Shown: positions 15,168-49,949 of the stretch, piece by piece
Numbering within the stretch: the stretch's first letter is position 1
Layout of the letters: each line of letters begins with the position of its first letter
From: Thuidium tamariscinum
Lineage: Eukaryota > Streptophyta > Bryopsida > Hypnales > Thuidiaceae
Assembly: GCA_947034885.2 (NCBI GenBank)
Contig: OX344753.2
Span: 10,974,001-11,038,000, forward strand
DNA length: 64,000 bases
Direction of reading: 5' to 3'
Program-made: the position numbers and the translations under genes
The notes under the pieces: model-generated
The model's input: the letters and a program-made list of their open reading frames with translations, nothing else
The model's database searches: none
Told to the model about the DNA's origin: nothing

Positions 15168-15635
15168 GTATTTGGATGCAGCGGTGCTATTCTGTGAGCT
15201 TGCGAGTGTAAGCTTGTGAGCATAGAGCATGAATTCTGTGAGCAGGGAATTCTAGAACTACAAAATATAGAGTAGAACTTAAATTATTAGACTAAAAAGC
15301 TAATATCCTTGCATTTTTGGTAAAATTTTCAATTAATTCTTAAATTTTAGAATTTTTGTTAACAGTCCTACGACTATGTGCCTATGATCGTGGATATCTA
15401 CTATTTGTAATAGAGTTGATATTTTACTAAATGGACATAGTTTTGTAGATTTGCATCGTGGAAAAAATTCGTAGAAGTGTTAATGGTGAATAATGATAGA
15501 AAGGAGACTATATTCAAAATTCCATCAACAATCAGTGTTTGATCAAAGCAAAAATGATACTCCTACAACAATATATATAACTCAAGTTTGAAGTCTTTTA
15601 GGGTCAATTTTAAACACTCATAGATCCTTAGACTT

Positions 15636-16099
15636 CTAGATATGTTGTAGATCCTTTTCTGGAATGTTGATGATACCAGCCCTAATGAAGAGGTGCTTTA
15701 CTTCATCAAAACTGAAGCTTGGAGTATGAATGAATTTGTCTTCAACAAGATTCATCTTGCAGAAGTACCAAGATAAACAATAAAGATGTTTGTAGTTTAT
15801 ATACTGATGGCGCCCTCCAATTGCTAAAAAAATCATGTTTACAAAATTAGGACATGTACATTGCAAGTACAAATCAAGTGTGATTTGATCAACTTTGTGT
15901 TTGGGCTCCATTCTAGATTAAAGGATTATAATGGCTCCAAGTCCAAGAAAGGGAAGCATAGTTATTCCTAAAAAAATTTCCCTTGACATTCCCAACGCTT
16001 TTCCATTTATTGCGATGCTCTATAGTAGGAGTATTTGTAATACATCTGATGGGCTTGTTTCTTCTAGTAGTAGAATATCTGCATCTATGGAAATAGACT
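15636..16099 (-). pseudogene. Decayed unrecognised gene fragment
   Basis: Minus-strand sequence with protein-like composition in two frames. From about 16099 down to 15920 one frame reads a leucine-rich, acidic-then-hydrophobic stretch (starting DADILLLEETSPSDVLQ) with internal stops. After a frame change, an ATG frame at 15911-15636 gives 91 residues containing a C-T-C-P motif, a YINYKHLYC stretch and a charged, helix-like C-terminus. I recognise no family. A SWIM finger (CxC..CxH) was considered because of the CxC, but the second half does not fit. It lies just inside the left end of the 6.9-kb element and points outward, so it may be a remnant of that element's own gene or a captured host gene. 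Confidence 0.4.
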
Positions 16100-16372
16100 A
16101 TAAAAAAAACTGCTTCATAAACATTGAACATTGTGAATAAGTATTAAGGAGATATAGGTAGTTGATCTTAGAGTTGAAAACCGGACTCTTATAATAGAAA
16201 TGTTTCTTGGTGAGTCATATTAGTACTTGTCAATACGGACCAAACGTTTGGTACTTGAGGCCAATCAATTATCCAACGCACTTTGAGCCTTGAAAACATC
16301 ACTAAATATCATATGGGCATTTGATATACTAATAATTTAAATTTTAGAGAATCTTTGCTAGTAACCAAGTAT

Positions 16373-18095
16373 AGCTATGATTTTGATCAAGTCTTTATAG
16401 ACATTGCCTTCCTCTCAAAGCCTAAGGGAGCATTTATGTGGACCTTCTTTGATCAAGTCCGTGTGGACATTGCCCTCCCCTTGGAGCCTAAGGGAGCGTC
16501 CATGTGGACCCTCTTTGATTACGTCTGTGTAGACATTGCCCTCCTTTCAGAGCCTAAAAGAGTGTCCACGGGTGAATGCAAGAAACACTTAAAGCCTTTT
16601 GTCACACCCTAGTTTTTTACTTTTTTTTTTGCCATAACTTTTGTGTTTTAACTCCAAATGATTCCAAATTTATAGGAAAGATACTTGCAGCTATTATGTA
16701 TCTATAATGAATTTTGGAGATTTTTCGAAAATAATTTATTATTTTTAAATAGCCCCGAAAATTTCTCATAGTACTCAATTTAGGGTTTCTTAGCACCATT
16801 TATCTTCTAAAAAACGAATTTTGACCTAAAATTTGGATAGAATGGTTTCTTATTAGACTTATAGCTATTTCCCTAAGGAATTCTAAAAATACTTATTTTA
16901 AAGTGTTGTAGAAGTCCACAAAGAGAGCTTCATTTTGCATTTTTTTCCAAAGGTATAAAACATTATTTTGGTGAGTTTTTTGGTCAAATCTTGTCACCAA
17001 AATTTTTGGTGAGTTTCAAGTTTTGTATTTTTATTTTTATTTTTTAAAAATAATCCTATTTTTTAAAAATTAAAATGTCACAAGTTGTATTTTCTTCATC
17101 GGAATTCTATGAGAATTCTATGTCCAAAGTTCCAGTGAAGAAAACACAACTTGTGACATTTTAATTTGTAAAAAATAGGATTTATTTTTAAAAAATACAT
17201 AAAAATATGATATTTGTAAAAACTTTTTGGTGATGATATTTGACTAAAAAACTCACCAAAATAATGTTTTATACCTTTGGAAAAAATGCAAAATGAAGCT
17301 CTCTTTGTGGACTTTTACAACACATAAAAATAGATATTTTTAGAATTCCTTTGGGCATTAGCTATAAGTCTATTAAGAGACCATCCTCTCCAAATTTTAG
17401 ATCAAAATTCATTTTTTTGGAGATACGGGGTGCTAAAAACCTTTAAATCAAGTATTGTGAGAAATTTTTGGGGCTATTTAAAAATAATAAATTATTTTTG
17501 AAAAATATGAAAAATTCATTATAGATACATAATAGCTATGAGTAGCTTCTATATAAATTTTGGATCATTTGGAACTAAAACACAAAAGTTATGGCTAAAA
17601 TAAAAATAAAAAAACTAGGGTGTGACGAAACGCAACAAATAGTACAAGTGTTTCTTGCATTTACCCCTGTGTGGACACTCTTTGATCAAGTCCATGTAGA
17701 CATTGCCCTCCCCTTGAAGCCTAAGGGAGCGTATGTGTGAACCATCTTTAATCAAGTCCGTGTAGACATTTCCCTCCCCTCGGAACCTAAGGGAACATCT
17801 GTGTGGAACTATGGACCCTCTTGATTACATCTGTGTGGACATTGTCCTCCCTTCAAAGCCTAAAGGAGTGTCTGTGTGGACCCTCTTTGATTGTGTCTGT
17901 GTAGACATTGTCCTCCCCTTAGAACCTAAGGAAGTGTCCGTGTGGACCCTCTTTGATCAAGTCTATATAGACATTGCCCTCCCCTCAAAGCCTAAGGGAA
18001 CATCCATAAGGATCATCTTTGATCAAGTCCGTGTAGACATTGCCCTCCCCTCAGAGCCTAAGGGAGCGTTTGTGTGGACCTTCTTTGATCAAAAG
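16373..18095 (+). repeat. 66-bp (22-codon) minisatellite, about ten units, split by a MITE
   Basis: GATCAAGTC-type anchors start at 16385, 16451 and 16517, then after a 1097-bp insertion at 17684, 17750, 17823, 17889, 17955, 18021 and 18087. The spacing is 66 bp except one 73-bp unit. Each unit reads GATCAAGTC, a GTGTAGACATTGCCCTCCC phrase, a CCTAAGGGAGCGT phrase and a GTGTGGACCCTCTTT phrase. Because 66 is divisible by three, plus-strand frames give a 22-residue repeat of the type FDQVRVDIALPSEPKG. The frame is broken by the MITE, by a TGA in the unit starting at 17684 and by the 7-nt length change, so no intact protein exists now. Whether it was ever translated is unknown. Confidence 0.85.
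16570..17666. mobile_element. 4-bp-TSD MITE family, 1.1-kb palindromic copy
   Basis: Inserted within a 66-bp minisatellite unit. Ends are GGGTGAATGCAAGAAACACTT and AAGTGTTTCTTGCATTTACCC. The two ~530-bp arms are inverted copies over nearly their whole length, meeting around 17110, so the single strand could fold into one long hairpin. The interrupted unit has 53 bp before and 17 bp after the insertion. That totals 70, exactly 4 more than the 66-bp unit, which independently shows a 4-bp target duplication; the duplicated bases have since diverged (CCAC left, CTGT right, unit consensus CCGT). No coding capacity. Confidence 0.9.
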
Positions 18096-19420
18096 ATTTT
18101 GTATATATTGGGATTTGTAAAATAACTAATAGTTTAGTGTTTATATGCATTTTTTAATTCCTAAATATATATTAAGAATTTGATAAGCTAATTTATGTCT
18201 CAAGATGAGGCACAATATCCATTGTTGAGATTAAATTGGAATTTCATACTTTATCTATGTTCGAGTTCTAATAGCTCTAGGAACTGCCTTTTATAAATTA
18301 CTAAATTCTTTTTGGTGAACTGATTCGTTGTACAGTGATCAATATTTCTGATATGAGTATTGAGTTTTTAATGAGAGGTTGTAGTTTTATAATTACTCTT
18401 CCTTCTACTAATCAGTCCTCTCAGCAGCGAGGACTCAGTGGAATTGGTTCGGTTTTGATGCTAACATTCTAGTATTCATAAGCAAATGGTTGTTTAAAAT
18501 AGTTTTTAGTTTTCTTCTTGATAGTAGAAACTAACATATATCACTCAAAATGATCAATTCTAATCAACAACAACAAATGAAGGACAAGGTCTTGGCCTCG
18601 AGACTTGTCTTACACCTTTAGGGTATTGAGTATGAATTTAATTTATTCTAATGTGTAAATACAAAAAATTATCATTAAATTTCTTTATATCACAAATGTA
18701 TTTTTAAGTGGTAGCTTTTATAAATTGCATAGTCTAAGAGCTACAAGAGACCATGTTAATAAAGAGATTTGTTCTTGTTTACAAATTTAAACTGAGTTTT
18801 CATGAGTGAGATTTGTTTTGTTTCATTACCATTTTCTTGAACTAGTAGGAGTCTTCCCTTGACACTGAGAGGAGGGAATTCAAGGTGTAGACTAGAACTA
18901 TCTATACATGACCATTTGATTGATTCCCCATTATAACTATGCTTTGTAGAGGAATTTAAGTATTTAACACAAGGCCTTCACTCATTCTAGTAAAATTAGT
19001 ATAATTTTTTTAATAACAATTTTGAATGCCTTTTCCTCTGTTTATGTTAAGGTGGCATCTAGATGCCTTATTTAAAATGTTTATATTTAAACAAGAGAGT
19101 GTTTAAATTCAAAGTTTGGAGAATTCTTCAATTGTTAAATTATATGTGCTTTTTGGTTGAATCAAACTCTTGAAAAAGGATCTCTTCTATTAGAGCCGAG
19201 AGGTCCCCTTCATGGATATTATTTTGATGTGTGTATAAATGATTCAAAGGAATTTGGTATTGAAACTACATTATAACACCATTTTCTTACTTTATCAAAG
19301 CTTCTTTAATGCTTTCAAGAGTTACAATACTTAAGTAGTGTAATTTCTAATGTTTTTGTTGGATATTGTTTTGGGAGATTGCTCCTCAATAAAATCCTCC
19401 TAAACCTAGTACTATGGAAA
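18096..19420. other. AT-rich segment inside the 6.9-kb element
   Basis: Between the minisatellite and the right-hand gene remnant. No clear frame or repeat. It may contain further decayed coding sequence of the same remnant, but I could not trace it. Confidence 0.45.
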
Positions 19421-21632
19421 AGGTAGACATTACTATTTACTAGAGAGAATGATATGGAAGCAGACATTGCCATAGAGAAAAATAAACAAGCAGAGGTGAT
19501 TGGACAAAAAGACATGGAAATGTCCGAAATTCAAGATGAGATGTAGATTGACAATGAGTATATTACTAAGGATGCTTTGAGGAAATCCTAGAAAGTAAAC
19601 TCTGTAGCTTTCATTGTCAATTTACAATTGAAACCTCATTTGATTTTACACCTCATGATTCCCCTATGTTGAATGATTGTGATGCCCATGGTTAAACCAA
19701 CGTTGTGGTACAATCTTATTAAATTGGAGAATGAGTACGTAAATAGATATAGAGATGGTTCAGCACTCTTCTATGTTTATGTTACTAACGAGCAAGGTGA
19801 TTTATTTGTTACTAACAAGAAGGGCACACCTCATGATTCATTTATCTTTACAAGTACTTTAAATTCAAACTGTTGATTAAGGGAGCTATAGAAAAACGAG
19901 ACCTTTTGCCTTTTCAAGAAACTTGGTTCAATGTATTGTCAAAGAATTACATGTTTTAAGTCTTCAAATGAAGTGGTGGACAAGTGCATACCTAAAATCT
20001 GGTGCTTGGTATTTAAATTGTCCACTAGAGTTTATTCTAACTGGTAATAGAGGAGCACCTTAAGCACTCCATTAACTTTCATCAAGTTGTATCCAAATTC
20101 AATGAATTTGTTGGTCTAAATGATGATGCTAAAGCCAAAGCCATGAAGAAATGAAATGAATTATATAAGAAGATAGTATTAAAGAACTCTGAGGCAATAG
20201 ATAAGGTAAAGGAGAGAGTGATGAAGAAGACAAAGAAATAAGAGGATTCAGAGAAGGCAGTTGCAACTGCCAAATCAAAGGAAAAGGTATCCAAATAAAA
20301 ACCTCTACCTCCATCTATGAAAGATGAGGGATCACAGCACCAACAGTCAAATTCTTGTGGCACTAAACAAAATGTTGAGTATATGTTTTTGAACGAAGAT
20401 GGCATGATACATGGCCCTTCACTAGTAGAGTTTCTTAGTGAATTGGAGATTACCATCAATGAGTTCATTGAAAACTATTTCCTTATGACTATACAAGATG
20501 ATCTTTTACTACAAGTGTACCACAATATTGTACAATTCATTGATAAGGTCTGTAATACACCATTATCTATAATAATTTTCAAAGTTTAATTTCATTCTTT
20601 TATTGTGTTTTTGAGTGAATATGTGAAATATTCTGCAGTACAAAGGGTCTAAAGAGCGATTTTTTAAAAGAATTAAAAGTGACAAGCCTTGCTTGGACCT
20701 AATGATTGCGGACATGCCTGAGGGTCTTCTAGTTCCAAACTTGTTTTCACCTCCTATTGTTGTTCTAAAGTAGAATATGGACTTTGCTACTTGGCTTCAA
20801 GAGATTTTTGAATTTGCAAATGGTCACCTTCATCACGATGGAGCTCTTGTCATCATTTATTCTTGGAATACCAAAATTAGAGCCAACATTTCTAGATATG
20901 CAGCGTCTTACAACTTTCAAAAGAAGAATGATTGGTGGGGAATGAGTCGGCTTCATCTTGCGTCACCTATTTTTTCTTTTTCCATAGTATGCTAATATCA
21001 ACTTTACCTTTCGTGATTTTTACAAATTCAATGCTTTGAGAGTTTCAATCATGTATGTTTATTTTTGTTAATTATACAGGGTAAGCATTGAGAATGATTG
21101 GTTGTCAATGTAATGTCATTAAATATCTATGTTGTTGTTTTCAAAGTTTATAAAGTCTTTTGAAGTCTTTGGAAGTCTTTTTTCATATTTTGGAACTAAT
21201 TGCTTTCATAAACTCAACAATTAGGAGCACTTCCGACGCTTTCAAATGATCTAGATATAGCGGATGTTTAAATTCCTCATATTGTGAAGAAATCTCGTTT
21301 CAATAAGTAAGTCTATACTCATCTTGCATATTTTTTTGGAAATGTAGATATATAGCTAAGCCATTTCATTTACATATTGGTTTTTCTTTTGTATAAAGAT
21401 GCATAACATACTTTATATATTTTTAATAAAAAAATTTGTACTATCAGCATGATTTCTAAGCACATCACTAATTGGCCATTCTTCACTTTATCCAGATTTT
21501 TTCCAAGCTCAAAGAAGTCCTATATACTACTTCCAAATGCAACAACTTTAGCATTAGCTTTCGCATTAGAGCAAGATATTCCTATAAAAGAAAAGCGTAG
21601 AACTTTAGATCCTAGAGTTTTGTAGTATGTAG
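19421..21632 (+). pseudogene. Decayed multi-exon gene, possible adenine-methyltransferase-like domain
   Basis: Long plus-strand stretches read as protein but are interrupted by stops and frame changes. In order: an acidic/Lys-rich segment (about 19440-19560), a frame at 19673-19876, a WYLNCPLEFILTGNRG-type segment near 20010-20060, a Lys-rich segment with three in-frame stops (20080-20310), a clean frame from 20317, and further coding-like blocks at 21225-21306 and 21460-21622. A good intron is visible at 20548-20638: GATAAG|GT..TGCAG|TAC, phase 0, 91 bp, joining two in-phase coding stretches. After it comes LDLMIADMPEGLL, then HHDGALVIIYS and NDWWGMSRL. The IADMPEG site resembles a degenerate DPPY motif of N6-adenine methyltransferases; that assignment is a weak inference. 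No intact product is possible. Confidence 0.5.
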
Positions 21633-22107
21633 AGTTGTAGACGTGACACCTATAAAGTTAGAGGACACATCATCGGCTAGCAGTAGTAGTCATTCTCAAT
21701 CTATGTACATCATCTATTTGATTCTATTTTTTTAATATTTTAATTGTTCATTTTTGTTTCTAATACAATGCATGTTTTCTTATGTATTTTGCATAGTAAT
21801 GGCTCTACATCTAAAAATCTTAAGTTGCAAACTACCTTCTTTTTTAATATTTATCACTTAAAGATGAAATTTTATTTATGATATGATAAAATTTTATTGA
21901 AGTTATGTTTTTGTATTTAAATTCTACTCTTCTATTTTTATAAAGTATATAGTCATAGGTTCCTCATCAAATTTTAACCAAATCTTCTATGCAATCAAAG
22001 TTCACGGTCATAGGGTACCACTCTAATTTTCACCAAAAAAATTGTGGGCTCATAGGCTCACAATGCAAGCTCACAGGCTCATAGAATAGCAACCATATAC
22101 TTGGATG

Positions 22108-26198: not shown

Positions 26199-26435
26199 GA
26201 ACGGTGCTAGTATGTGAGCATGAAAGTGTGAGCATGTGAGCCTTGAGCATATAGATAAGTATGTATATGCAACCATTTGAAGGTGTTTATAACATAAACA
26301 CCTATAATATAGGTGCTTATAGCATATATACACTATTAACATAGAAGGTTACTATAATATAGACACTTATATCATAGATGTATAGTCTTCTAGGCTCACA
26401 AGTTTACACTTTTATGCTCATATAATAGCAACCCT
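26199..26435. mobile_element. Short relative of the 6.9-kb element family (237 bp)
   Basis: Left end GAACGGTGCTAGTATGTGAG and right end ..TATAATAGCAACCCT match the termini of the 15179-22096 and 49105-49938 elements, including five bases after ATAGCA. Subterminal GTGAGC and GCTCAC motifs are present. The interior is built of repeated 'tataacata' and 'gtgcttata' phrases shared with a decayed stretch near 11000-11090. I could not find a matching 11-bp duplication, so the copy may be old or a recombinant. Confidence 0.6.
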
Positions 26436-27153
26436 CAATGACCATAGTTGTTTAGAATCCCAAACAAGATGGTTGTTTCAAATAGAATGGGAGTAATCCA
26501 CCAAATGTGCATAGTTGTTTTGAATCCAAGACAAGATCTGTACTTCAAAGAGTCAATTGAGATTGAAAAAAATACTAATCCAAGAAAATGCCCACTTATT
26601 ATTATTAGACATCTTTTGACAAAATTATATCTACCAAACATTAAATCAAGTCAATATCAATTGTCTCCATCTACAAGATTTGAAGTTGATCGATGAAGGT
26701 GTAACTCTATTATGCTACTAGAGGTTGGTGGATAGTAAGAGGACAATTGCTACCAAGGATAGAATGCTCCAAGTGATGGTAAAAGAGCAACTTGGCAAAT
26801 GGAATATCAATAGATTGAGGGTGACAGAATGGCATTGTATTAGACTAGTACAAAAGAAGTGAAAAAATGGCTTTGGAATCCAAAAAATGTCTCAAGGCAA
26901 ATGATATGGCAAAAAGTTGTTGACTTAGAGGTTGATAGGTGGCAAAAAACACATGGCACCTTAAGAGGCCAATGATTGATGGCATAGACACCGTACTCTT
27001 GGTTACCATAGGAGGCTAAGGCATTTGATGGACAATTTTTGACAATACATTGCATGGGTAAACAATGAGTCTCAAATAGTTGAACATATAATTGTTCATC
27101 ATGAGGCTATTTCTACTCGATTCTCTTAAGGTTCCCTTTATTTGTGTCAAAAA
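26436..27153. other. Intergenic, weak coding-like texture only
   Basis: A plus-strand stretch at about 26700-26900 has balanced composition and reads briefly as a Lys/Arg-rich peptide, but it has no start, meets stops and matches nothing I know. Otherwise AT-rich. Confidence 0.4.
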
Positions 27154-43283: not shown

Positions 43284-43497
43284 TGTTGAGATAAGATAAC
43301 GATCCTAGTTAACTTAGGTTAAGTGAGACTTAGGATAAGATAAGAGTAGATCTCACTACTAGTGACACTACTAGTGACACTACTAGTGATACTTCCTATA
43401 TAAATGTATGATCATGTAACACTTATGATTATTACTTTGAGAACTTCTTATTTGCATTATATATTTTCTATGTCTATGCTCTGCTTCCTTCGCAACA
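43284..43497 (+). repeat. 5' LTR (214 bp)
   Basis: TGTTGAG..GCAACA. It contains three tandem copies of a 12-bp unit (CACTACTAGTGA) near 43353-43390, where the 3' LTR has two. It includes a TATATAAA box and should carry the element's promoter and start of R. Confidence 0.95.
43397..43404 (+). promoter_or_regulatory. TATA box in the 5' LTR
   Basis: TATATAAA, about 100 bp before the LTR end, is the likely core promoter of the retrotransposon. The same box is present in the 3' LTR at 48236-48243, where it could drive transcription into the right flank. Confidence 0.65.
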
Positions 43498-43512
43498 CGT
43501 TATCAGCACGAT
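43498..43512 (+). promoter_or_regulatory. Presumed primer-binding site
   Basis: The bases directly after the 5' LTR, CGTTATCAGCACGAT, occupy the position where a tRNA primer anneals to start minus-strand synthesis. The sequence is not the common TGGTATCAGAGC form complementary to initiator Met-tRNA; which tRNA or tRNA fragment is used cannot be told by eye. Confidence 0.5.
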
Positions 43513-43579
43513 TTGTCTCTCGTTTTGCTATTCTCTTTTTCTCTTTTCTTTTTTGCTATTGTCTTTAGCTACGATAGCT

Positions 43580-46500
43580 ATGGCGGATAAGAAGTCAGCG
43601 CGGGAGAGTAGCTCCCGGGTACAACCACTTTTGTTTGATGCTCTTGAAGCCGATGGTAGCAATTACATGGAGTGGAGTATAGATGTGAAAGCGTACTTTT
43701 ATTCGGAGGAGTTGGACGATGCGATCGATGATGAACCAGAGGCGGATTTTCCAATGTCATCCAAGTGGAAAGCTTTGCTTGTTCTTCGCCGCCACCTTCA
43801 CACCTCTCTTCGACAGCAATACATCCAAGTTGACAACCCGGCGGAGCTATGGCGTCAACTTCATGCTCGGTTTTATCATGAACGCACTATCTTTCTTCCC
43901 CAAGCTCGAAATGATTGGATTGCTCTTCGTGTTCTTGATTTCCCTGATTTCCTTTCCTTCAATGCTGAATTGCATCGTATTACTGCTCAACTTCGTCTTT
44001 GTGGAGATAGGATTACAGATAGGGAGCTCATAGATAAAACCCTATCCACTTTTCCTCCGGCTTCTGCCCTCTTAGCTCAGCAGTATAGGAATATGAAGTT
44101 TACGACACATTCCGAACTAATGTCTTATCTCTTGCTTGCTGAAAAACAGCAACAGCTTCTACTTAAAAACGCAGAAGCAAAACCCGCTCGAGAGGCTCAC
44201 ACTTCTGAGATCTCGAGGCAACAACCACGAGGAACAAGGAAACAACAACAACGGTTGCCAAATCGGCAACACCCTAGAGATAAATCAAACTCTTATAGAC
44301 CCTCCTCTAATAGAGTCTCTCGATACTCAGATCGTTTTTCTAATCGTGATTATCGCTCTTCTCAATTGAATGATAGATCTTCTGATAGAACCCTCGATAG
44401 GAAGTCATCTTTTTCATGTGACGATCGTACTTGTCACAAGTGTGGCCGTAAAGGGCATATTGCTCGATACTGCCGCACTCCTGAGTACTACGTTAGTATG
44501 TACAAAGAGTTAGAGAAGTTTAGAAATGAAAAGAGAGAGGCTCATTCGCTCGACGCTCCTTCCTCTTCCAATGTAAATATCAAAAATTACATGGTGCATA
44601 TCTCTAAAGAGTTAGCTCCTACAGATATAGCTCTTATCGATAGTGCCACGACACATACAATTCTTAGAGATCTGAAATATTTCACGTTTGCTAGCCGTGA
44701 TAGAACCTGGCAGACTTGTGATATCGTCACAATTGCTGGAAGTCGGAACTTTCGGTTCCGAGAGGGCCAGGCAACTATAGTATTGCCTGGGGGGACCCCC
44801 CTCGTGTGTGAAAAAGCAATGTATGCCCCTGATGCCCCCCGGAGCCTGATCAGCTACCGTGATTTACGGGCTAATAGGATGGATGTCTCCACTGCATTGG
44901 ATGACCATAAAGAAGTATTGGAACTCAGGCAAGGTCAGCAACTCCTTGCCACCGCTAACGCAGGAGTTACTGGCCTATACGAGTTATTGATAAGCCCTCC
45001 TAAGGAGTCAGCTTTCCACTTCTCTACTTCGGTAGGAGATGATGAAGAGTACCGGGAACTCAGGCAAGGCCGACAGTCCCTTGCCACTGCGAAAGCAAGA
45101 GTCGATGGACTAGTATGTGAGAGCAACTCTGCTTTGATACCCCCCTCTACAGCTAAGACTGGATTGTGGCATAGTCGGTTGGGCCATCCAGGCACCACTA
45201 TGTTGAGGAGGATGTTACCTTTGTTGGAAGGACACAATTTGTACACCAGTGATGCTGACAAGGTTGGGAGCTGCGCGGCATGTTCACAAGGAAAGCTTAT
45301 TAAGCGCCCTTCACATTGGAAGCTACCAACGGAACTCCCTCCTATGTTACAGCGTCTACAAGGTGATGTATGCGGACCAATTACTCCATCTTCTGGACCA
45401 TTTCGATATTTTCTTGTGCTTGTTGATGCTTCAGGCAAACACTCGGAGGTATCCCTGCTTAGCACCCGAAACATGGTGTTTTCAAAGCTTCTAGCTATGA
45501 TTATTAAGTTTCGGACTCATCATCTGGACTATCCTGTGAAGAGTTTGAGGATGGACAATGCCCAAGAATTTCGCTCTCATGCCTTTGAGGATTATTGTAC
45601 TGCTAATGGGATTTCACTTACATACTCTGTCCCATATGAACATTCACAAAATGGATTGGCGGAGGCATATATCAAGAAGATTCAACTCATCACTCGGCCT
45701 TTATTGATCCATGCCAAGTTGCCTCCTACAATGTGGGGACATGCAGTTCTACATGCAGCTACATTACTCAGGTTTCGTCCTACCTTGCTCAATACTCAGT
45801 CTTCTTTCGAGTTAATATCTGGACGTGTCCCCAATGTTTTCCATTTTCGTGTATTTGGCTGTAGAGTATGGATTCCAGTTTCTGAACCTCATAGGAAAAC
45901 GATAGGTAGTCACCGTCAGGAAGGGATCTATATTGGTTTTGATTCCCCTAGCATCATTCGATATGTTTCACCTTCATCAGGCACTCTCCTACGTGCTAGA
46001 TTTTCCAATTGTCATTTTGAAGAGTATAGTTTCCCTTCTCTACCCAATGTCAAGTCCCCTGCTTTAGATTTTTGGGCACCTGAAACCATCATTCAAAACC
46101 CTGACCCCCGCACAGCCTTAGCTGAGTCTGAGGTCAAGAAACTTATTCATTTACAATCCCTTGCAGACAAACTACCAGATGGCTTTAGTGATGGTCCCCG
46201 AATTACTCGAAATCCTCTCCCTGGCACAGGACTTATCCCCATTAGTGTCATTCCTTCTAAGCGTACGATTGATCCTACTGCTTCTATATCTAAGAAACCT
46301 CGCCCTCATCATGTCACCTTATATAGTGATGCACTTTTCTCACCTGATGATAATTCACAATTTTCTTCTTTCCCTGAAGATGGTTCATCCGTGACCGCCT
46401 TCATTACTCGGATACTTAGTGATGATCCTGATCCACTCACGTTAGATGAAGCAAAATCTAGCCCTGACTGGCCAAAGTGGCAAGTTGCACTTGCTGCCGA

Positions 46501-48043
46501 ATATTCTTCCCTTAGAAAACATGAAGTCTTTGGTCCTTTGTTGACCAACCTTCCTACTAAACCCATAGGATACAAGTTGATTTTTACTCGGAAACGTAAT
46601 ACCCAAGGACAAATAGTCCGATTCAAAGTACGATTAGTGGCTCAAGGATTCAATCAACGTCCTGGCATTGATTTTACCTTTACTTATTCTCCTGTTATGG
46701 ATGCCACTACCTTTAGATATCTACTTGGCCTAGCTGTACAACATTCTTTGGAAACCACGCTTCTAGATGTTGTGACAGCTTACCTTTATGGAAATTTAGA
46801 TGCCACAATTTATATAAGGCCTCCTCCTGATTTCTTGCCTACGCCCCCTTCGGCTGATTCTTCGGGCAAGTATTCTGGCCTCAAGCTACAATGAGCTCTT
46901 TATGGATTAAAACAAGCAGGTCGCATGTGGTATAAACATTTGAGAGATTTCTTGCTATACCACAAGTTCCGGCACGACCCTACCCTTCCGTGTATATTCA
47001 CTTTGAAGGATGCTCACGGATTTGTGATAATTGCCATTTATGTTGATGATCTCAACCTTATAGGTACGCCCTCCACTTGCCACCAAACGGTAACATTACT
47101 AACAATTCATTTTGAAATGAAACTACTTGGCCGCACTTCTTTTTGTCTTGGTTTAGAGATTACACATTTGCCCAATGGAAGTATATTTCTTCACCAAACT
47201 GCGTATACTCAACGGTTGCTCAAGAATTTCAAGATGGACCAAGCAAATCCTTTATCTGCTCCCATGATCGGTCGAAGCAAGACAAATGATGACCCATACC
47301 GACCTTGCGAGGAGGAGGAGGAGGTATATGATAGCAAACGGTACCTCACAGCAGTCGGAGCTTTGTTATATTTATCTACATATACTCGACCAGATATATC
47401 ATTTGCAACAAGCATGTTAGCTCGGCATAGTCAGAGGCCCACGATGCGACATTGGAATGGAGTCAAACATTTGTTTAGGTATCTTCGCGGAACAGAAGAC
47501 TTAGGACTTCATTATACAAAGACTGGACCATCAAATTTAGTTGGATATGCAGATGCTGGTTTCAAGTCAGATGAAAACACGGGCAAGTCCCAGACAGGTT
47601 ATATCTTCCTACGTAACAATGCACCCATATCATGGAAGTCTGTGAAGCAAACAGTGACTGCAACATCAACCAACCATGCGGAGTTAATCGCATTCCATGA
47701 AGCGACAAGAGAAGTAGTTTGGTTGCGGACAATTGACAAGATCATTTCAGATCAATGTGAACTCAGCCACAATACACAACCAACAACGATTTTTGAAGAT
47801 AATGCAGCATGTGTGGCGCAAGTTACAGGTGGATTCATCAAGGCTGATTGAACGAAGCACATTAGTCCACAAATCTTTGGATTTACCCAAGACCTTATTG
47901 AATCAGGAGAAATTGAAGTGAAGAAAGTTCAATCCTCCAACAATATTGCTGACATACTTACAAAGGCACTCCCTGCTTACACTCACAGACGATTGGTTCA
48001 AGAAGCTGGCATGAGATCTCTTCAAGATCTAGTTACACATTAG
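43580..48043 (+). pseudogene. Copia gag-pol polyprotein, two in-frame TGA codons
   Basis: One frame of 1488 codons. I start it at the first true ATG (MADKK..), since the frame upstream has no ATG. Domains with residue positions: gag N-terminal region (~1-250); CCHC zinc knuckle CHKCGRKGHIARYC (285-298); aspartic protease D354 in LIDSATTH; GAG-pre-integrase zinc region from H531 (LWHSRLGHPG..CAACSQGK); integrase D596, D659, E695 (D,D35E); reverse transcriptase with LLDVVTAYLYG and YVDD (1154-1157); RNase H beginning at D1325 (GYADAGF). TGA stops at codon 1105 (46892-46894, just before ALYGLKQ) and codon 1424 (47849-47851, in the RNase H region), both in the same frame as the rest. Each looks like CGA turned into TGA. 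Gag, protease and integrase are open; reverse transcriptase is cut in two, so the element is not autonomous unless the stops are read through. Confidence 0.95.
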
Positions 48044-49104: not shown

Positions 49105-49938
49105 CAACGACGCTAGTTTGTGAGCCTAAAAGCATGAGCTTGTGAGTTGTGAGCGTAGGTTTCGTGAGCCCAAAGAATTAACCAAAAAAAACTGTGAATT
49201 TTTTAAGCCAAGTGAAAAAAAAGTGAAGTCATTTAAAAAAATCTATTTATAGTAAAATATCAGCTTCATGACCATGGACCTATGACCGTGGACCTATGAC
49301 CGTGGAAATGTGGTTAATGTATTTTAAAATTTCAAACCCTAATATCTCCAAAGGGCCTCTCAATACCTTCCAAAAAAAAAATTTGAATTTTTGAATTCTT
49401 TTTTGAGGTTAAAAATCCAGAATCCAACAAGAGGTTTTCTACGGTGATGGAGTCGTGAATTTTTTTTTTTCCAACTTTATCACCCTGAAATTGATCTCTC
49501 GGTATCGAGAGAAGGTTTTCAAGGGTGAAAAGTCGCAAAAAAAAATGAACTAGTAACATAGTCGGAAAAAAAAAAAAAAGTTGAAGAAAAATGAAAAAAA
49601 GAAGTTTTGAGAGCTCCAAAGCTCTCTACCTCCAAACCCCTTTCAATATCAAGAGGGATTTTGGAGGGTGATGGAGTTGCAAAAAAATTTGAAAGATAAA
49701 AAAAGGACTGAAAAAAAAATTGAAAAAAATTGAAAATTTTTTTTTTGAAAAAAAGAGTTTTGAAAGTCACAAATTTCAAATCTCATGAGGGGGATACTAG
49801 ATATAAAAATCCAAAATTCTTAAAGCACGGTAATAGGTCCATGCCCTAAAAATCACTAAAAATTTCACCAAAAATTCTAGGCTCATAAACTCACAAGCTC
49901 ATAGGCTCACACTCGCACTCTCAAAAAATAGCATCCCC
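49105..49938 (+). mobile_element. Short member of the 6.9-kb element family (834 bp, 11-bp TSD)
   Basis: Left end CAACGACGCTAGTTTGTGAG and right end ..CTCAAAAAATAGCATCCCC are inverted relatives and match the ends of 15179-22096. An exact 11-bp direct repeat ACACATTTTGG flanks it (49094-49104 and 49939-49949). Subterminal GTGAGC-type motifs and CCTATGACCGTG motifs occur about 160-190 bp from the left end and about 100 bp (inverse) from the right. The interior holds degenerate A- and T-rich repeats ('aaagggcctctcaatacc', 'gagaaggttttcaagggtg', 'cctttcaatatcaagaggg') and no coding sequence. It looks like a non-autonomous derivative. Confidence 0.85.
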
Positions 49939-49949
49939 ACACATTTTGG

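Follow-up and report, generated by a model that had tools for sequence, protein, structure and literature searches.

A decayed, internally deleted copy of an abundant two-gene DNA transposon family in the moss Thuidium tamariscinum, with a transposase-like gene and a putative ParB-like/DNA-methyltransferase accessory gene

The DNA analysed was a stretch of 64,000 nucleotides of Thuidium tamariscinum (GenBank assembly GCA_947034885.2, contig OX344753.2, positions 10,974,001 to 11,038,000), called the window throughout; coordinates are window positions unless a contig is named. One DNA transposon copy spans positions 15179-22097. With the gene roles that we infer below, this copy is very probably an old, internally deleted member of an abundant family of cut-and-paste type whose full-length members carry two genes, one for a transposase-like protein (gene 1) and one for an accessory protein with a putative ParB-like region and a predicted DNA methyltransferase domain (gene 2). 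The features of the window are collected in Table 1.

Full-length members were sought in the genome assembly, which comprises 363 Mb, nearly all in 11 large sequences. A light-harvesting protein of this genome matched plant chains, the best single-domain ones being 8htu and 7xqp, from the moss Physcomitrium, which makes a moss host likely. Using the frame fragment at 20774-20992 as the query, 150 places were scored of 535 candidates; the stretches around eight of these were read, and neighbouring stretches were added for six copies, designated A to F. Copy A measured 13,993 bp and copy D 13,983 bp, both with a target duplication of 10 bp, and copy B measured 12,355 bp and copy F 13,076 bp, both with a duplication of 9 bp. 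An end-pattern search of the retrieved sequence did not locate a left end in copies C and E. Full-length members, at 12.4-14.0 kb, have matching ends, duplications of 9-10 bp and two divergent genes, and the terminal inverted repeats of the family are GTGAGC-rich. A search for a full-length copy with intact frames had been proposed in an earlier reading of the window made from its letters (the sequence-only reading), and both genes read as open in copies A and D, gene 2 by approximate spliced alignment. In the gene 2 exon search, an identical 168-aa exon was encoded at six places, including copy F, which is a sign of recent spread.

The left end of the window copy was aligned to the left end of copy A over 70 bp (Table 1), and the right end was 77-84% identical to the right end of copy A; as judged from these alignments, the sharing of ends between the two copies is not due to chance. 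The sequence-only reading had placed the ends of a single element at 15179 and 22096. The single element was upheld by the ends that it shares with full-length copies, and the right end was moved one base further, to 22097. The likeness of the flanks at 9 of 11 positions, with all differences being transitions, was reproduced. The length of 11 bp given to the target duplication was not: it is 9-10 bp when many copies are read and 10 bp in the long copy (TATTTGGATG/TACTTGGATG, 9/10 identical). When the register was left free, 35 of 3000 random site pairs gave a match at least as good as 9/10, a figure that lends itself to another explanation, in which the ends at 15.2 and 22.1 kb come from two short elements with 6.9 kb of unrelated sequence between them; the family has many short copies, and the window contains others. 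However, the left-type and right-type ends enclose collinear remnants of both genes in the order of the family, and in the four copies delimited at both ends (A, B, D, and F) this pair of ends recurs, flanked by duplications, so that the two ends are not confined to separate short elements. Separate elements were rejected on this collinearity with the full-length copies and are considered highly improbable.

The gene remnants within the single long copy were mapped by tblastn with the proteins of copy A. One remnant is the tail of the transposase-like protein and the others belong to the ParB-like/DNA-methyltransferase accessory gene. The earlier impression that the coding remnants resemble no familiar transposase was borne out, and is now narrowed to these two assignments. 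No tblastn match was found in the window copy for transposase residues 1-972, which include the putative catalytic core, for accessory residues 129-499, which include the CDGNHR motif, or for accessory residues 826-965 (the motif I exon). A 1.7-kb repeat block is positioned between the two gene remnants, and no match to it longer than 22 bp was found in the 38 loci searched. The CpG observed/expected ratio of the window copy is 0.32 versus 0.21-0.26 in its surroundings, and that of the four full-length copies is 0.69-0.71, with 0.26-0.59 in their flanks; the low value of the window copy is as would be expected of a long-silenced copy. Read against the full-length members, the 6.9-kb copy is an internally deleted derivative plus insertion, decayed, and not the full gene-bearing form; the transposase core and key gene 2 exons are gone from it. 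As a separate observation, the fold-back element that interrupts the repeat block (16594-17630) has arms about 85% alike and TGTCACACCCTAG-like ends, and pieces related to it are found at approximately 7.5-8.2, 12.3, 33.1, and 59.6-60.4 kb of the window.

The family also includes a short form without genes. For the 834-bp form, 40 copies were scored of 665 candidates, namely the window's own and 39 others, the latter being full or nearly full length at 87-91% identity. Ends were read in 21 short copies (the copy at 49105 plus 20 more, picked by rank from those that align to bases 1-834 of the query). The right end extends by one base, a G after ..CCC, in 18 of the 21. The duplications fall in one register, with exact 10-bp duplications in 10 copies and exact 9-bp duplications in 4; in 17 copies the duplication exceeded the 95% level set by 420 mismatched pairs, and in the remaining 4 none did. 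The match extends over 11 bp in 5 of the 21, including the copy at 49105, where the exact 11-bp repeat noted earlier is present and is interpreted as a duplication of 10 bp with one adjoining base that also matches. By its sequence, the 834-bp form was confirmed as a non-autonomous family member. The 237-bp piece is a possible member: its ends match, and the subterminal motif and a target duplication were both looked for in it and neither was found. The earlier proposal of one family with a gene-bearing long form, an 834-bp form and a 237-bp form accordingly stands for the family and the 834-bp form, with the 6.9-kb copy no longer its full form and the 237-bp piece only possibly included.

The subterminal motif CCTATGACCGTG occurs 932 times genome-wide as an exact match versus 6 times for a reversed control, in a collection of the kind that the sequence-only reading had suggested. 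Its position was scored in copies A, B, D, and F and in the long and 834-bp copies of the window. With two mismatches or fewer, the motif is confined in the four full-length copies to the neighbourhood of the ends, at the left-hand distances listed in Table 1 and, inverted, at 101-103 bp from the right end. As had been read earlier, the motif lies farther from the left end than from the right in both window elements (203 versus 84 bp in the long copy; 175 and 189 versus 103 bp in the 834-bp copy, which has an extra right-side hit at 35). A family-type end was present in 7 of 8 loci read around CCTATGACCGTG.

Gene 1 occupies the left half of the full-length element on the minus strand, and its two exons give a protein of 1189 aa in copy A. 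Exon 1 contains 7 stops in copy C and is open in the other five (A, B, D, E, and F). Exon 2, read in five copies, is open in A, B, and D, with one stop close to the end in F and two stops in C. The protein has conserved FDHVKR, GFMADSAQAN (with one change in C), and CLxHW motifs, which form a D..D..CxxH pattern, and a C-terminal CTC..NCKH motif, SWIM-like (CxC..CxH), in A, B, D, and F; the first C of the latter is changed in the decayed copy C. Exon 2 of copy B matched the SWIM family PF04434 at E 0.18, below the cut-off. Target duplications of the MULE superfamily are approximately 8-11 bp. The likeness of gene 1 and its element to this superfamily consists of the 9-10 bp duplication, the SWIM-like C-terminal motif, and the D..D..CxxH pattern, in which the putative catalytic spacings are 65 versus 67 for D-D and 30 versus 37 for D-C. 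The difference is that neither PF10551, the canonical MULE family, nor those of the genome's own PF10551 proteins that were compared are matched. None of the 33 PF10551 matches in the genome comes closer than 41.9 kb to one of the 150 listed transposase matches. Comparison of gene 1 with an alignment of five of these proteins gave an hhalign probability of 0.1, which is weak negative evidence because the profiles are shallow (effective number of sequences, Neff, approximately 1.4 and 1.6), and Smith-Waterman comparison with two of them gave z <1. Assignment as a canonical MULE by sequence was consequently unsupported by Pfam, hhalign, and Smith-Waterman alike. Pfam includes a KDZ model, and no KDZ family was found with the whole gene 1 protein among Pfam models at E 10. 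A duplication of 4 bp, as in the Sola superfamily, does not fit the 9-10 bp found here. Gene 1 protein is, from its motifs, transposase-like, Mutator-like in architecture and duplication length, and not a proven MULE; such an uncatalogued transposase may represent an unrecorded branch close to the Mutator group.

Gene 2 occupies the right half on the plus strand, and its ten exons encode at least 1080 aa in copy A. In approximate spliced alignments, the frame was uninterrupted in A, D, E, and F; B contained two stops and a partial locus (L046) five. The C-terminal domain of copy A matched PF01555 (N6_N4_Mtase) at E 3.5e-6 with 27.6 bits versus a cut-off of 26.7, and that of copy F, from a second subfamily, scored 25.0 bits, below the cut-off. 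A three-sequence profile matched DpnA (9e-7) and CcrM (3.6e-6) in PDB over positions 17-240, and in the alignment to CcrM across these positions motif IV precedes motif I, which is the beta-class order. The domain also matched a PHROG DNA methyltransferase at 8.6e-8 and the NCBIfam CcrM model at 3.7e-4, far below the cut-off of the latter. When it was searched against phages by tblastn, the best contig had E 1e-5, and none of the 80 records at E <=1 covered >80% of the query. By profile, the C-terminal domain is a predicted beta-class DNA methyltransferase domain. The N-terminal region, which carries the CDGNHR motif and is 55% identical between copies A and F, is tentatively described as ParB-like. 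A search of IMG/VR for relatives of the accessory protein returned 96 and 106 stretches that fit the patterns, of which none was confirmed, and single-exon searches of PDB yielded no useful hit.

The methyltransferase motifs were read in 34 loci, including that of the window, with motif IV readable in 33 and motif I in 27. Motif IV reads DMPE in 21 loci, DVPE in 3, and DCPE in 1, giving DxPE in 25 of 33, and takes other forms in 8. Motif I reads DCTAxxG in 21 of 27, where DpnA has DPFMGSG and CcrM has DPFFGVG.

The two genes lie together in most of the matches scored. Transposase matches were scored for 150 of 821 candidates, and the gene 2 lists hold 150 of 535 and 150 of 613. A gene 2 exon lies divergently upstream within 25 kb of at least 98 of the 150 scored transposase matches, a lower bound because the gene 2 lists are of that size; of the remaining 52, 4 have a gene 2 exon in another arrangement and 48 have none among the matches listed. 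When positions were redrawn 300 times, the mean was 2.4 and the maximum 7 pairings. Among the best 60 transposase matches, 51 were paired with gene 2. Within gene 2, among the matches listed, a methyltransferase exon follows downstream on the same strand in 55 of 150 ParB-like exons, at 2.4-3.6 kb in 52 of the 55. Two observations on the distribution of copies were made separately. On contig C6, several copies at 24.97-25.65 Mb have identical or near-identical scores for both genes at a spacing of about 200-230 kb, a pattern that suggests a recent segmental or tandem duplication carrying the element. Contig C11 (17.5 Mb, about 5% of the assembly) holds 37 of 150 transposase and 29 of 150 methyltransferase matches, among the matches listed, and is a chromosome rich in transposable elements, perhaps sex-linked or accessory.

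The ratio of nonsynonymous to synonymous divergence (dN/dS) was calculated for gene 2 and for the first exon of the transposase gene, with codons containing stops dropped. The values, given in this order, were 0.18 and 0.13 for the pair B-F and 0.19 and 0.13 for E-F, and synonymous divergence (dS) was saturated in distant pairs. The informative comparisons indicate that both genes are under purifying selection. These results bear on whether gene 2 is cargo, picked up between the ends by accident from the host or a bacterium, in the manner of Pack-MULEs, and without a role for the element. Plant transposons capture gene fragments (PMC6431247), the function assigned to the gene 2 protein is itself a prediction, and the 52 transposase matches with no divergent gene 2 exon among the matches listed would fit such an origin. 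Against it, at least 98 of the 150 adjoin gene 2 in one orientation, gene 2 is present across subfamilies as diverged as A and F, and the selection on it in B-F and E-F is like that on the transposase. Linkage and selection together disfavour cargo, which is held to be improbable; gene 2, being kept by selection, probably serves the element. In the same gene, dS between B (L043/L048) and F (L045/L062) dropped from approximately 0.85 over the ParB-like part to 0.10 over the methyltransferase part, and this contrast suggests recombination or gene conversion between subfamilies.

Several results weigh against the reading of the family as a transposase gene paired with a selected ParB-like/methyltransferase gene. 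For gene 1 protein of copy A, no Pfam family was found at E 10, a null limited by the HMMER filters, which drop most weak matches; no NCBIfam match was found at E 1, and a profile of exon 1 found only two unrelated chains in PDB, with E 0.8 and 1.2. Because no profile library recognises the protein, its label as a transposase rests on motifs, position, and linkage. For gene 2, the hits of the N-terminal region to the ParB superfamily were weak (DUF1015, 0.0034; PHROG ParB, 0.0075; DndB, 0.06-0.14) and none came from copy A, for which the best weak Pfam match of this region was the unrelated DERM at 0.018; a PDB profile search of the region found no ParB. The catalytic (D/N/S)PP(Y/F/W) motif, DPPY included, was found in none of the 33 loci readable at motif IV. 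With regard to selection, dN/dS was 0.43 and 0.29 for B-E, A-D, a very close pair with few changes, gave 1.2 and 2.2, and within gene 2 in B-F the constraint was weaker in the methyltransferase part (about 0.32) than in the ParB-like part (0.05).

With the two-gene reading retained, the product of gene 1 would mobilise long and short forms alike via their shared ends, and its cutting and pasting of DNA between these ends would explain the short forms without genes, as their ends and duplications suggest. The gene 2 protein would bind to the element, with the subterminal motif as a possible site, and may protect it from host silencing or regulate transposition, either by modifying bases or by occupying the DNA. 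Modification of element DNA and a DNA-bound shield against silencing, similar to VANC, are two versions of this proposal that are about equally likely.

In the first version, element DNA would be marked by the accessory protein, working as a catalytically active N6-adenine or N4-cytosine DNA methyltransferase; this possibility is rated somewhat below an even chance. It draws on the beta-class domain order, the matches to PF01555, CcrM, and DpnA, and the proposal (PMC12477816) that proteins with the same two domains modify their own transposon in algae. It has to contend with the change of DPPY to DxPE in 25 of 33 loci and to other non-DPPY forms in 8, and with the departure of motif I from the DpnA and CcrM forms in the 21 loci reading DCTAxxG. 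As DPPY is absent from all 33, methyltransferase activity may be lost. In the second version, to which the same tentative weight is given, the accessory protein would have lost catalysis and, bound to DNA as a ParB-like factor, would block or remove host silencing by 5-methylcytosine (5mC), in analogy to VANC. A degenerate catalytic motif in a conserved protein would be consistent with this, as would an inverted subterminal motif that is strongly enriched in the genome, in tandem in some copies, restricted to the ends in the four full-length copies, and accompanied by a family-type end in most loci read around it; VANC provides a functional parallel (PMC5735166). On the other side, the putative binding motif is present in one or two copies per end and not in dense arrays as for VANDAL21, and the CpG-poor state of the window copy suggests that silencing evidently succeeded in the long run. 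In its most specific form, the proposal is that a land-plant lineage with an unrecognised transposase kept a prokaryote-like ParB-methyltransferase protein with a rebuilt, probably non-canonical or non-catalytic DxPE site, which would load at the subterminal motif and shield or mark the element against 5mC silencing. Taken as a whole this is rather unlikely; if true, motif-loaded shielding or marking would explain the hundreds of candidate copies and their recent spread.

The family was compared with published systems as described in the papers cited. Sola1-1_Ec32, a 21.5-kb Sola-1 transposon of the brown alga Ectocarpus, carries opposite its transposase a gene for a 1104-aa protein with ParB-like and N4C/N6A DNA methyltransferase domains (PMC12477816), so that accessory genes of this kind are already known; the same paper cites green and red algal transposons (Iyer 2011, Petroll 2025). 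Compared by description only, both Sola1-1_Ec32 and the moss family are giant DNA transposons with a ParB-like/methyltransferase gene on the strand opposite the transposase. They differ in the Sola-1 transposase, the length of 21.5 kb, and the brown algal host of the former, and in the 9-10 bp duplications, SWIM-like tail, lack of a transposase profile match, high copy number, and DxPE motif IV of the latter. VANC proteins of the Arabidopsis VANDAL elements are a functional parallel of anti-silencing (PMC5735166): a protein other than the transposase is encoded, and a short motif lies in non-coding parts. The motif of the moss family is present once or twice near each end and not in dense arrays, and the likeness is functional only. 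Phage proteins that fuse ParB and N6_N4_Mtase domains (PMC12704722) have the same two domain types and are possibly the ultimate relatives of the accessory protein. In contrast to these, the moss protein exceeds 1000 aa, is encoded with introns in a eukaryotic transposon, and has long linkers and DxPE for DPPY. DNA-modifying enzymes are also carried by DNMT retrotransposons and, as adenine methyltransferases, by DIRS elements (PMC5890265), and by fungal TET/JBP DNA transposons (PMC12730594); these enzymes are of other families and their carriers of other transposon classes.

A literature search limited to open-licence papers found no land-plant or moss example, PMC12477816 being the closest. 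Within that literature, the moss family is new in its host, a land plant, in its high copy number, in combining 9-10 bp duplications with a transposase that no profile library recognises, in its conserved replacement by DxPE, and in carrying its subterminal motif in pairs. The role of ParB-methyltransferase accessory genes has so far only been proposed, in a few algal transposons. With a selected gene, a defined motif, and copies in both full-length and decayed states, an abundant and recently spreading family allows a test of whether the protein marks its own element's DNA, shields it from cytosine methylation, or aids transposition. The DxPE active site is in itself an unusual departure in a well-studied enzyme class.

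Table 1. Features of the transposon family in the window, with positions on the forward strand
Feature	Position	Strand	Evidence
Left target-site duplication TATTTGGATG	15169..15178	.	9/10 identical to 22098-22107
Left terminal inverted repeat region (CAGCGGTGCTATTCTGTGAGC...)	15179..15248	+	85.7% identity over 70 bp to copy A left end
Left subterminal motif CCTATGATCGTG, one mismatch to CCTATGACCGTG	15381..15392	+	Element position 203; 189-211 in A, B, D, F
Transposase-like gene remnant, C-terminal part with SWIM-like CxC..CxH	15639..16284	-	Residues 973-1189 of copy A; two overlapping tblastn pieces, 65% and 52% identity, E 4e-67
Insertion/expansion, tandem repeat of 66-bp period (seven overlapping 186-nt matches)	16383..18138	.	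Repeat search and self-BLAST
Inverted-repeat (fold-back) element interrupting the tandem repeat block	16594-17630	.	Repeat search and self-BLAST
Accessory gene remnant, residues 49-128, start of putative ParB-like region	19559..19798	+	tblastn, 52.5% identity
Accessory gene remnant, residues 500-714	19846..20547	+	tblastn, 32% identity
Accessory gene remnant, residues 707-825, methyltransferase motif IV region, reads ADMPEG	20627..20971	+	tblastn, 50%, E 2e-55
Accessory gene remnant, residues 966-1056, C-terminal tail	21230..21643	+	tblastn, 31% identity
Right subterminal motif, inverted	22003..22014	-	84 bp from right end
Right terminal inverted repeat	22070..22097	-	22-bp arms 86% complementary to 15185-15206; copy A right-end match
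Right target-site duplication TACTTGGATG	22098..22107	.	Partner of 15169..15178
Possible very short member (237-bp form), matching ends	26199..26436	+	Ends 80-82% alike over 41-49 bp
Target duplication of the 834-bp form, CACATTTTGG	49095-49104/49940-49949	.	Duplications in 17 of 21 short copies
Short non-autonomous member (834-bp form), tandem subterminal motifs	49105..49939	+	39 other full or nearly full copies, 87-91%

Elsewhere in the window, a Ty1-copia-like retrotransposon was observed at 43412-47851, with an open frame of 1160 aa followed by one of 318 aa and a single stop between them. Its GC content is 0.44 and its CpG observed/expected ratio is 0.68 versus 0.21-0.26 elsewhere in the window, values that point to a probably young copy.

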